Assembly: GCA_021779955.1 (NCBI GenBank)
Contig: JAJXZS010000004.1
Span: 1-51,026 of the forward strand
Length of the DNA: 51,026 bases
From: Chloroflexota bacterium
GTDB lineage: Bacteria > Chloroflexota > Anaerolineae > Anaerolineales > Anaerolineaceae
Direction: 5' to 3'
A model generated the notes under the pieces. The model saw only the letters and a list, made by a program, of their open reading frames with translations, had not been told where the DNA came from and did no database searches. The translations under genes and the position numbers were made by a program. Of the stretch, positions 44,120-48,530 are shown in pieces (the stretch's first letter is position 1; every line of letters starts with the position of its first letter).

Positions 44120-44791
44120 TTACCAGTTCTGGATGATCGCCTGAACCTTGGTGATGATCATGTCCACAGCCACGGTATTGTGCCCTCCTTCGGGCACGAT
44201 CACATCCGCATACTGCTTGCTCGGCTCAACAAACTGGATATGCATCGGGCGCACGCTCTCCATGTACTGCTTCACCACTGATTCGCGGGTCCGCGCTCTC
44301 TCCAGGATGTCCCGTTCCATGCGCCTGATAAAGCGGATGTCCGCATCTGTATCGACGAAGATCTTGATATCGAACAGATTGCGCAACTGTTCATCCGCAA
44401 GGATCAGGATCCCTTCAACAACCACCACTTTCCCAGGAGTCATGTGCACGTGCTCGTGCCTGCGGACGTGCTGCGAGAAATCGTAGATCGGAACGTCCAC
44501 GGCAAGACCCTGTTGAAGCTGCTTGATATGCTCGACGAGCAGGGGCGTATCCAGCGCATCGGGATGATCGTAATTGACCTTCGCCCGCTCATCCATCGAC
44601 ATGTGGCTGCGGTCCTTGTAGTACGAATCGTGCGTGATCACCGTCACATCCGTTGGTCCCAGCTTGTTGAAGATCTCCCGCACAACGGTCGTCTTCCCCG
44701 AACCGGTTCCCCCCGCCACCCCAACAATTACCGGAGCCTTGGCCTTATTCAAAGCGGCATCCACCGCTGCCGACTCAATCACTTCGCTCAT
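44120..44791 (-). CDS. udk: Uridine kinase
   Basis: A 223-residue enzyme that phosphorylates uridine (and cytidine) to the monophosphate using ATP or GTP. The P-loop is GVAGGTGSGKTTV, followed by ITHDSYYKD, VNYDHPDALDTPLL, YDFSQHVR, VVVEGILIL and RFIRRMERDI, as in Udk. Its place inside the polysaccharide locus may supply UMP for UDP-sugars. GAGGTGG lies nine bases before ATG. It overlaps the upstream glycosyltransferase by 17 bases. Confidence 0.93.
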   Translation of the reverse strand: MSEVIESAAVDAALNKAKAPVIVGVAGGTGSGKTTVVREIFNKLGPTDVTVITHDSYYKDRSHMSMDERAKVNYDHPDALDTPLLVEHIKQLQQGLAVDVPIYDFSQHVRRHEHVHMTPGKVVVVEGILILADEQLRNLFDIKIFVDTDADIRFIRRMERDILERARTRESVVKQYMESVRPMHIQFVEPSKQYADVIVPEGGHNTVAVDMIITKVQAIIQNW

Positions 44792-46028
44792 GTTTTGCCA
44801 CCACCTCTGAAAAGACTTCGCTCAGTTGTTGCACGTTGCGCTTAATATCGTATTCCCGGGCTACCACATCCCACCCGCCTTCGCGCAATGACTGTCGCAG
44901 GTTGGAATCCTCTCTCACCCTCAGGATCGCTTCTGCCAGCTGTTCTTCGTCTCGTTCAGCCACCAGCAACCCGCTGACTTCGCTCTCGACCATCTCAGGG
45001 ATTCCGGACACCGGCGTGGAAACGACGGGCACACCCATTGCCAATGCTTCCATCATCGCCACAGGAATTCCATCTTGCCCGCCTGCTCCGGCCTGCACGC
45101 ATGCCAGGGCGAACACATCGCTTCTGGTAAGCTGATCGCGCACCCAAACTTGCGATCTCCCTCCTGCCAGTTCAACCTTGCCTTGCAGGCCTAGCTCGTC
45201 GATCAGCGCCTGTAACCGGTCCTTTTGTTCGCCAATTCCGATGATCGTGCAATGGAAATCCACTCCCCACTCTTTCAGCCTCCCGCATGCCCGAATGAGA
45301 TGCTCATGCCCCTTCTTCGGGATCAAACTGCCCACCGAGGTGATCCGCATGGGTCCGGCCGTCTTCTCATCATCGCTTCCAATAGCCTGAAAGAACGAGA
45401 GATCCACCCCACAATGAATGACATTGATCTTCTCTTCCGGCAGGAGATTGCACTGCTCGAGCATCGCCCGTTTGTTCTTCTGCGAGATGGTGATCACCCT
45501 GGCAGCTTTTCGGGTGGTCAGATCGAGCAGATCGTTGCGCTCGGAATAGATGTCATAAGCATGTGTGGTCACTGTAAAAGGCAAACCGAGCAGTTCGCTC
45601 ACAACCCATGCCGAAGCCGCCGAAAGCCAGGCGAAATGGGAATGAACCATCCGGATGCCGCGCGGCTCCATGTCCCCGGCTACCCAGGCGCTTTTCAAGA
45701 AAACGCCGAACCGTTTGAGGTAAAACGAAACCCCCGGCGCAGGCTGCCTTAACAATGTGCCCAGCAGCTTGAAATACCTTCCGGGGGATTTGATCACGAA
45801 ACGGAATTGAGCCGCCCAGAGGCTGGGCGAACCAAAACCGGGAGCCGTCCGGGCCAATGCCAGAAGGCTCTGCGAAACCGGGTGGACCAGCGTGTCTCGT
45901 GGCTCGAGCAGCGAGTAGATGCAGACTTCGATACCCTTATCCTGGATCTTTTGGATCTCTTCGGCGATAAAAGTCTCGGTCATGCAGGGGAAGCGTAAGA
46001 GAATATACGCGACTTTGAGGTTGGCCAC
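44775..46028 (-). CDS. GT4-family glycosyltransferase (WcaL-like)
   Basis: A 417-residue GT-B enzyme. LRFPCMTETFIAEEI and MVHSHFAWLSAASAWVVSEL, with PFTVTTHAYDIYSERN, resemble WcaL/AmsK-type transferases of colanic-acid-like pathways. The donor domain has VGSLIPKKGHEHLIRACGRL and the EALAMGVPVVSTPVSGIPEM block. Start is probably GTG at 46028, because AAAGGA lies nine bases before it; an upstream TTG (46055) is the alternative. The gene is 60 bases downstream of the fused autokinase. Confidence 0.88.
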   Translation of the reverse strand: MANLKVAYILLRFPCMTETFIAEEIQKIQDKGIEVCIYSLLEPRDTLVHPVSQSLLALARTAPGFGSPSLWAAQFRFVIKSPGRYFKLLGTLLRQPAPGVSFYLKRFGVFLKSAWVAGDMEPRGIRMVHSHFAWLSAASAWVVSELLGLPFTVTTHAYDIYSERNDLLDLTTRKAARVITISQKNKRAMLEQCNLLPEEKINVIHCGVDLSFFQAIGSDDEKTAGPMRITSVGSLIPKKGHEHLIRACGRLKEWGVDFHCTIIGIGEQKDRLQALIDELGLQGKVELAGGRSQVWVRDQLTRSDVFALACVQAGAGGQDGIPVAMMEALAMGVPVVSTPVSGIPEMVESEVSGLLVAERDEEQLAEAILRVREDSNLRQSLREGGWDVVAREYDIKRNVQQLSEVFSEVVAKHERSD

Positions 46029-46088: not shown

Positions 46089-48530
46089 CTAAAGCATTTC
46101 TGACTGCGCCAGTTGTTTCATCGCTTGCAGAGTCTGATAAGGGGTCCTGCCGTAACAATATTTGCCCGGATACGGCCGCTCGTTGTTGTAATTCCTCAAC
46201 CATTCATCCAGGTCACGCTGCAGCTCGTCAATGGTTTCGTAGGTCTTCTTGCGGAACGTCACCTGGTAAAACTCGTCGCGGATGAGTTTATGGAATCGGG
46301 TCGACATGCCGTTGGTCTTGGCATGCCATGCATCCGTGCTTGCGTGATCGCATCCATTGGTTTTCAACAGCATCTCGTACGGGTGCAATTCGGCATCCCC
46401 GCAATAGATCCCGTCGCGGTCGGTCAATACGCGCTGCAATTTGATTTTTTCTTCCTCGTAAAACGGCAGAACATGGTTCTTGAGCAAATCCACTGCCGTA
46501 TCCACATTTCTGCGATAGTAGATGCTCGCAATGGTATAGCCCGTGTACGTGTCGATGAACGTTTGCTGGTAGATTCTCCCCACCCCGTCGATCAAGCCGA
46601 TGTGAAACGAATCCTGCACTCCCAGGTTGCCCGGGTAGCTGCTTTCGGTCTCAGCTTCTGCATCCCGTTCGGCCTTTGCTTTTTCCAGAGCTTCCAGTTG
46701 GCTCACCGAATATACGATTTCTTCATCTGAAGCCTTATTCTGCAGAACTTGATTGCGCTTTTCGAAGGTCTCCAACCCATGCCTGAGCCAGATTGTCCTC
46801 ACGCACCCGGGGCTGACATAGATAGCCCGCTTCCGCAGTTCGTTCGAAACGCGGATCTGCCCGTATAGGGGGTTCTCCATCGCCAGCGCGATCACCGATT
46901 CTTCGACAGCGGGATCGATATGCCGGTTCGATGAGGAATTCTTGCTTTCCCCGTTTTCTTCATCCTCTTCGTCATCATCGTTTCCAAGGCGCCTCAAGAT
47001 GTAGGAGGAGGATAATCGATCTTCTTCTGGTTGGGCCCGGTGATAATAATAGTTGTCGCTGCTGGAATCCTGATTCACGATCAATGCCGTGAACTTATCG
47101 GGGAAATTTTTCAAGAACGAACCTGCCGCTCTTGACGCTTCCCGCGTCGTTTGCTTCCTCCGCGCAACCAGGAACATGCCGTCAGCGCTTTCGCTGATGA
47201 CCGCAGCATCACCAACTGCCAGCAGCGCAGGCGTATCGAGCAGCACGTAATCGAACTTATTGCTCAAAGTGGTGATCAATTGCTTCATCCGCTGGCTGCC
47301 CATCAGCAGCGTAGGCTTCTCTGCGTCTTCGCCGCTTGTGATCACGTACATCCCATCGAATTTGGTTTGCTGCAACACGGATGCAACATCCGCTGTATCT
47401 TCAAGATAGTCCTTCAATCCGATTTCATTCGATAACTCGAACCATTTGTGCAGTTTTGGCATCCGCAGATCACAATCCACAGCCACCACCCGCTTGCCGA
47501 ACTCCGTCAGCGATACCGCAAGATGCGAGACGATCATCGATTTGCCCTGGTTCGGCTCGGAACTCAACACAAGAATGGTCTTTAGCGATCTTTTCCGATC
47601 CAACTGCTGGATCTTCATGGCGAGCTCGCGGAACGAATCTGTAAACGCTGTGCTTCCGCTCAGAGTCAGCTTTGTTTGAGACTTTCGCACTTTGGGAACG
47701 CGCGAAAATGTCGGTAACCCCGTATAATGCTCGATATCTTGCGCGGTGTAGAGCGTGGTATCGAAACTGTTGATCACAAATGCCAGCACGATCCCGCCGA
47801 CCAACCCTGCTGCCAACCCGATTAGCAGGTTATACAATAGCACCGGTTTTGCAGGTTCGATGGCTACCAGCGGCGACTCAACGATCGTGATCATGTTCGC
47901 CCGCATCGCGTTCTGATACTGCGACGTTTGATACTGGCTCAGCAGCGAATCATAATTTCGCTGCTCCAAAATCAGCTCCTGGTAAAGCAAATCAGCCTGC
48001 GCCGGCGCGGCCGGCGTGAGCAGTAAGGCTTCATTGTATTTCTGCCGCGTGATCAAAATTTCAGCCTCGGCTTGCGCCACCTGGGTGCCAAGCACAACCA
48101 CTGCATTCGTCCCGCCGCCTGTATAAAGCGTATTGCTTTGTGAGATCAGATAGTTGCCGAGAGCTTGCGCTATCCCGGCCGCTGTCTCAGGATTTGGGTC
48201 GAGCACAGTGATCTTGATCAGCTCGGTATTGGGGAGCACCTCGGCGGTCACGTCCGGTTTGTAGGTCAGCTTGAGATCGCTCATCATGTTGTTCAATACG
48301 GGCTGGCTCGTAGCGATCTGAGCCACCGTGTTGAGCAATTGCGTCGTGTATGTCGTGGAACTGCTCGTCCCTCCGGTCGAAGAAGTTGCCACCCTTATCG
48401 TAACCCATGATTCATATAATGGAGTTTGCATTCGGGTGCCGATCACCACGGCAGCCAGCGCAGCCAACACAGTAATCAAGATCACCCATTTTCTGCGCAG
48501 CAAGATGCTCATGTAATCTTTGAGTTCCAT
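46089..48530 (-). CDS. Wzz/BY-kinase tyrosine autokinase fused to an IS481-type transposase core
   Basis: An 813-residue single-frame fusion. Residues 1-255 are a Wzz chain-length domain with two membrane helices (about 14-31 and 231-255). Residues 290-500 are a BY-kinase: Walker A in SSEPNQGKS (323-331), Walker A' VVAVDCDLR (348-356), Walker B VLLDT (429-433), and a YYY cluster (494-496). After an acidic linker, residues 536-807 match an IS481-type transposase minus its first helix-turn-helix: PLYGQIRVSNELRKRAIYVS, then IYQQTFIDTYTGY, then VLTDRDGIYC and NGMSTRFHKLIRDEFY. Asp640 and Asp704 align with the catalytic aspartates, but the third position is Thr744 where active enzymes have Glu. 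The spacing between the last two positions is unchanged (39 residues). No stop or shift interrupts the frame, so I infer a domesticated, inactive DDE domain. The kinase would control chain length and export. Confidence 0.9.
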   Translation of the reverse strand: MELKDYMSILLRRKWVILITVLAALAAVVIGTRMQTPLYESWVTIRVATSSTGGTSSSTTYTTQLLNTVAQIATSQPVLNNMMSDLKLTYKPDVTAEVLPNTELIKITVLDPNPETAAGIAQALGNYLISQSNTLYTGGGTNAVVVLGTQVAQAEAEILITRQKYNEALLLTPAAPAQADLLYQELILEQRNYDSLLSQYQTSQYQNAMRANMITIVESPLVAIEPAKPVLLYNLLIGLAAGLVGGIVLAFVINSFDTTLYTAQDIEHYTGLPTFSRVPKVRKSQTKLTLSGSTAFTDSFRELAMKIQQLDRKRSLKTILVLSSEPNQGKSMIVSHLAVSLTEFGKRVVAVDCDLRMPKLHKWFELSNEIGLKDYLEDTADVASVLQQTKFDGMYVITSGEDAEKPTLLMGSQRMKQLITTLSNKFDYVLLDTPALLAVGDAAVISESADGMFLVARRKQTTREASRAAGSFLKNFPDKFTALIVNQDSSSDNYYYHRAQPEEDRLSSSYILRRLGNDDDEEDEENGESKNSSSNRHIDPAVEESVIALAMENPLYGQIRVSNELRKRAIYVSPGCVRTIWLRHGLETFEKRNQVLQNKASDEEIVYSVSQLEALEKAKAERDAEAETESSYPGNLGVQDSFHIGLIDGVGRIYQQTFIDTYTGYTIASIYYRRNVDTAVDLLKNHVLPFYEEEKIKLQRVLTDRDGIYCGDAELHPYEMLLKTNGCDHASTDAWHAKTNGMSTRFHKLIRDEFYQVTFRKKTYETIDELQRDLDEWLRNYNNERPYPGKYCYGRTPYQTLQAMKQLAQSEML

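Follow-up and report, generated by a model that had tools for sequence, protein, structure and literature searches.

The question raised by this locus is whether a transposase domain at the end of a membrane tyrosine kinase has been taken into use by its host, or whether it is an idle remnant of a mobile element. The window analysed is the whole stretch of 51,026 nt from contig JAJXZS010000004.1 (assembly GCA_021779955.1), which belongs to a Chloroflexota bacterium of the family Anaerolineaceae. An earlier note, made from these letters alone, had suggested exaptation, and its claims are taken up below where results bear on them.

A kinase and a transposase in one open frame

The fusion gene occupies positions 46089-48530 on the reverse strand, as do all the features of the protein described below. 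It is a single open frame of 813 codons without interruption, encoding 813 amino acids followed by a stop. This is how the earlier note had described it, and the residue numbers and coordinates given there are right. The kinase part is complete to about residue 497, and is followed by a disordered acidic linker and then by an IS481-type transposase domain (residues 534-813, 46092-46931), delimited using NF033577 and a profile of relatives.

The protein begins with a Wzz domain (residues 2-86, 48273-48527), which matches Pfam PF02706 with 35.4 bits against a cut-off of 25.5. The GNVR region, which contains the second membrane helix (residues 185-252, 47775-47978), scores 25.9 bits with PF13807, just below the cut-off of 27.7; the structure model of the full-length protein (mean pLDDT 79.0, pTM 0.48) places this helix at residues 231-256. 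The BY-kinase domain (residues 300-497, 47040-47633) matches the NCBIfam profile TIGR01007 with 127 bits against a cut-off of 108. The Wzz and kinase profiles are both above their curated cut-offs, as looked for in a BY-kinase of the PCP-2a group. The kinase motifs are all present and intact, namely EPNQGKS at residue 325, DCDLRMP at 352 and FDYVLLDTP at 426, which we take to be Walker A, A' and B, respectively.

A cluster of tyrosines (Tyr494-496, 47043-47051) was located by alignment with 24 kinases. In the nearest kinases the aligned positions are at the end of the protein, whereas in the fusion the cluster is internal. The nearest kinases that have the cluster (L162, L163, L165-L167 and L169) stop a few residues past it, which implies that the join was made at the natural end of the kinase or just after it. 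The linker that follows (residues 498-533, 46932-47039) is predicted with pLDDT below 50 over residues 491-536, and carries a charge of -6 over 504-533. The junction could lie anywhere within residues 498-537, that is approximately 47039-46920, a range that includes the position near 46945 suggested earlier. A frameshift at the junction was looked for in the sequence, and none is visible.

Long tails are found in some other kinases of this type. Tails of more than 200 residues occur in 4 of 90 kinase-like ORFs, a set picked by similarity and partly by length, which includes some short MinD-like ORFs. In addition to the fusion these comprise a BY-kinase with a GAF domain past the tyrosine cluster (L151:1462-3735), one with a LysM domain in the same place (L192:841-3603), and G043. 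The GAF and LysM proteins have the same order of kinase, tyrosine cluster and extra domain as the fusion, and differ from it in that the extra domain is not a transposase. Since domains have been added past the tyrosine cluster in other BY-kinases, a functional tail is plausible.

G043 (L185:9475-12687) comes from the same genus as the fusion, and is a BY-kinase of 1070 amino acids, of which the C-terminal tail takes up 496. The tail is acidic at first and Lys-rich at its end, with a net charge of -8. It includes the sequence RGRPRKN, presumably an AT-hook-like motif, and no Pfam domain was matched in it. The idea that C-terminal DNA-binding tails recur in this genus was considered on the basis of G043, and is unsupported given this charge and the lack of a Pfam match; it remains a lead.

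The transposase part: losses and retained features

The transposase domain matches the NCBIfam profile NF033577 (transpos_IS481) over residues 521-800 with 167 bits, which is below the equivalog cut-off of 224, so that it is not assigned at the equivalog level. It also matches Pfam rve_3 over 726-786, above the cut-off. A profile made from 67 relatives gives 376 bits over 520-813, with low alignment confidence before approximately residue 537. The domain contains the second helix-turn-helix (residues 538-585, 46776-46919), an RNase H-like catalytic core (residues 629-762, 46245-46646) and a set of C-terminal helices (residues 763-811, 46098-46244). A model of residues 528-813 (mean pLDDT 76.6) has the fold of an integrase core, nearest to IstA and retroviral integrases. 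In the full-length model the prediction is good for both the second helix-turn-helix and the C-terminal helices, and of low confidence for segments of the catalytic core.

The D-D-E triad is incomplete. Alignment with the relatives indicates that Asp640 (46611-46613) and Asp704 (46419-46421) are kept, and that the catalytic Glu is replaced by Thr744 (46299-46301). At this position Glu is found in 67 of the 67 aligned relatives, in all 14 rows of the same group that lie outside that alignment, and in all eight of the more distant or damaged copies that were checked. The first helix-turn-helix of the full-length relatives has no recognisable counterpart in the fusion, where the profile match is reliable only from near residue 537. 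Both observations agree with the earlier note, to which no terminal inverted repeats were apparent either. This needs a small qualification: none are recognisable, and the only candidate in the window is a weak inverted pair that does bracket the domain (45891-45914 and 47056-47079, 24 nt, 71%). The pair is at chance level (11 of 60 shuffles were equal or better) and sits within the coding sequences of the kinase and the glycosyltransferase.

The closest relative found (L003) is a free-standing transposase of 389 amino acids from another genus of the family, with approximately 56% identity. It has the catalytic Glu, the first helix-turn-helix and a 40-nt inverted-repeat pair (83%), while the fused domain lacks all three. 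More generally, the fused domain resembles IS481-family transposases in having the integrase core and the second helix-turn-helix, at 46-56% identity to free-standing copies from many phyla, but differs from them in these same three features and in its score below the equivalog cut-off. It is present in a single copy in its own genome, and in GC3 and codon usage the tail is like the genes of the window. The net charge of the tail is -8, which is equal to that of its nearest relative and is therefore uninformative on DNA binding.

Constraint, decay and occurrence

The alternative that survives best is that the tail is a passenger, in other words a transposase fragment that was fused by read-through when the kinase stop was lost, and which is idle and tolerated while it decays. 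The fusion is found in one genome only, parts of its catalytic core are poorly predicted, and its conserved residues are being lost fast, all of which would fit. The losses were counted over 114 near-invariant positions in residues 538-811, defined as at least 95% conserved among the 67 distinct relatives. The fusion has lost 33 of these without a stop or frameshift; the worst of the 67 relatives has lost 6, and the median is 1. A further 19 of 86 rows stand outside the alignment: four have in-frame stops, four are truncated at the end of a contig, six are identical copies, and five are fragmentary or from another subfamily. The 14 of the same group among them have lost 0-4 of the 114. With a stricter set of 56 positions, which are conserved in another IS481 subfamily as well, the fusion has lost 13 and the worst relative 4. 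The terminal branch of the fusion is the longest in the FastTree tree, at 0.76 compared to at most 0.27. The number of losses does not in itself demonstrate a changed function, because intact transposases from another subfamily of IS481 deviate at 42-48 of some 113 of these positions without decay, and keep the Glu where this was checked.

Against a passenger, 33 losses without a stop are not easily obtained by drift. When neutral drift was simulated until 33 residues had been lost, the mean number of stops was 4-5 (3.8 at the lowest setting). Only 1.25% of 2000 runs were free of stops, and 0.3-3.0% over 12 settings with 600 runs each; these fractions count stops only, and frameshifts would reduce them further. 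Damaged copies of the same group do carry stops: one of them (L188) has 23 losses and 2 stops, and four others have in-frame stops with just 2-4 losses. A two-ratio codon model, without site-rate variation, rejected omega = 1 on the fusion branch as a whole (2dlnL = 40.6), and fixing omega at 0.3 costs 2dlnL = 24.3. The free estimate ran to the branch-length limit because dS is saturated, and no omega can be quoted for this branch, which also covers the time spent as a mobile element. The earlier note had suggested that neutral evolution of the tail would count against exaptation, and by both the codon model and the simulation its evolution does not look neutral. A transposase with catalysis lost and the frame still open under constraint, as looked for in domestication, is what is seen here, subject to the saturation of dS. 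We consider it rather unlikely that the tail is a decaying passenger.

The losses are unevenly distributed. They amount to 2 of 15 near-invariant residues in the second helix-turn-helix (13 kept), 6 of 13 in the linker helices, 23 of 70 in the catalytic core, and 2 of 16 in the C-terminal helices (14 kept). The second helix-turn-helix and C-terminal helices together have lost 4 of 31, compared to 29 of 83 for the rest (Fisher p 0.022), and the comparison with the catalytic core alone gives p 0.050; in both cases the regions were set post hoc. The stricter set points in the same direction with small numbers (0/3, 2/5, 10/36 and 1/12 for the four regions in the same order). The statistics thus support non-neutral evolution of the tail, and also that its second helix-turn-helix and C-terminal helices have been retained better than its remaining parts.

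The selection seen could also belong to an earlier life of the domain, if domestication came first, in a separate gene that was already inactive, and the join to the kinase is recent. The changes in the tail are not datable relative to the fusion, and its codon usage is already like that of the window, both of which would fit this sequence of events. Against it, no free-standing relative that lacks the Glu was seen among the 67 aligned, 14 left-out and 8 distant or damaged copies, and we regard this history as quite improbable.

The same fusion was searched for at increasing distance. It was not seen in the 15 other genomes of the genus (16 with its own), in 146 others of the family (searched as 61 and then 147 genomes), in 300 others in a sample of the order (301 genomes), or in 395 others in a sample of the class (396 genomes); from the family outward, a subset of the first-look candidates was scored per genome. 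With the tail as query, no fusion was found in 399 others of a phylum sample (400 genomes), again with a subset of the first-look candidates scored. These sets overlap, those for order, class and phylum being samples. When 84,980 species genomes were scanned, 387 relatives were obtained, of which the best 80 all match the transposase part only. Among plasmids there are 1494 matching records, and in none of them does the match extend over 80% of the query. The earlier note had counted occurrence in this assembly only against its own proposal, and this is how the searches came out. Conservation in several species, which is also looked for in domestication, is thus replaced by occurrence in one assembly, and this is the main weakness of the exaptation reading.

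The neighbouring genes are relevant here. They are exopolysaccharide genes, with an aminotransferase upstream of the fusion, and a glycosyltransferase, an O-antigen-ligase-like protein and a flippase downstream; a gene of the PRK/uridine-kinase family lies in between. For the glycosyltransferase directly downstream (44778-46025), none of the 15 other genus genomes gives a match at E <= 1e-70, and identity within the family reaches 38% at most. A gene at the other end of the contig (2224-4569) has a match at E <= 1e-100 in 15 of the 16 genus genomes, its own included, with 70-86% identity across the genus. The exopolysaccharide cluster around the fusion looks replaceable. With the other end of the contig shared across the genus, and no strong match there for the downstream gene, the absence of the fusion elsewhere may partly reflect a cluster that is not common to the genus. 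That the join or the contig is a chimera of assembly or binning would be in keeping with a metagenome-like draft in 56 contigs, with a join absent from all other genomes searched and with the poorly matched downstream gene, but is very unlikely given that the frame continues through the join, that GC3 and codon usage are alike on both sides of it, that the far end of the contig belongs to the genus, and that the domain is single-copy, which makes collapse of repeated insertion sequences an improbable cause of the join.

A putative module under the kinase ring, and known systems

The tail is probably a catalytically dead IS481-type transposase that has been exapted to serve beneath the kinase ring as a module for binding or assembly. 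The exaptation suggested by the earlier note is supported in part, as regards the in-frame fusion, the loss of the Glu and the first helix-turn-helix and the non-neutral evolution, and is weakened by the single assembly. What is read directly from the DNA is that the two parts are fused, that the kinase motifs are intact, that the Glu is missing and that the frame is open. This could have arisen as follows. An IS481-type transposase gene, lacking its inverted repeats and the first of its DNA-binding domains, would have been joined to an exopolysaccharide BY-kinase gene at or just after the natural end of the latter, giving one long protein. After this the transposase part would have lost catalysis, while selection maintained it as a folded module in the cytoplasm.

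By analogy with E. coli Wzc, the kinase may form a ring, in which case several dead transposase domains would hang beneath each ring on the flexible acidic linker. The tails might either aid the assembly of the ring or grip a partner, DNA or protein, in a multivalent manner. Binding of a partner would link polysaccharide synthesis to something within the cell. In a more specific and unlikely version, the tail is a membrane-tethered device for binding DNA: the retained second helix-turn-helix, in several copies under the ring, would anchor the exopolysaccharide machine at a chromosomal site or on the nucleoid. If true, polysaccharide synthesis and chromosome position or transcription would be coupled via tyrosine phosphorylation.

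The fusion protein resembles Wzc and other PCP-2a BY-kinases (E. coli Wzc, S. aureus CapA-CapB) in its Wzz domain, P-loop motifs, tyrosine cluster and location in an exopolysaccharide cluster, and differs in having approximately 317 residues past the tyrosine cluster. In E. coli Wzc the tyrosine-rich tail enters the active site of a neighbour within the octamer, which forms and comes apart with phosphorylation (PMC11986026). The fusion raises the question of how a Wzc-type kinase works when its tyrosine tail does not have a free end.

No published kinase-transposase fusion of this type was found in the literature covered, which was mainly at the level of abstracts, with subscription journals mostly outside it. 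In the same literature, fusions between transposases and host proteins are mainly eukaryotic. One example is CSB-PGBD3, in which the transposase likewise forms the C-terminal part of a host protein (PMC3459987). The present protein differs in being a bacterial membrane kinase, in being made from one uninterrupted frame rather than by alternative splicing, and in that its function is putative. A bacterial example, here with a signalling kinase whose architecture is known, would mean that new proteins arise by the same route in bacteria. It also makes it possible to test directly if a membrane machine can use a dead transposase as a structural element or to tether DNA.

A second comparison is with the pneumococcal capsule BY-kinase CpsD, which is linked to chromosome segregation through ParB. 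There the link is by protein interaction, and DNA binding by CpsD was not detected by the authors (PMC4574921). Both cases would concern a BY-kinase of capsule or exopolysaccharide synthesis with a link to the chromosome machinery, the difference being that here the candidate link would be built into the polypeptide itself.
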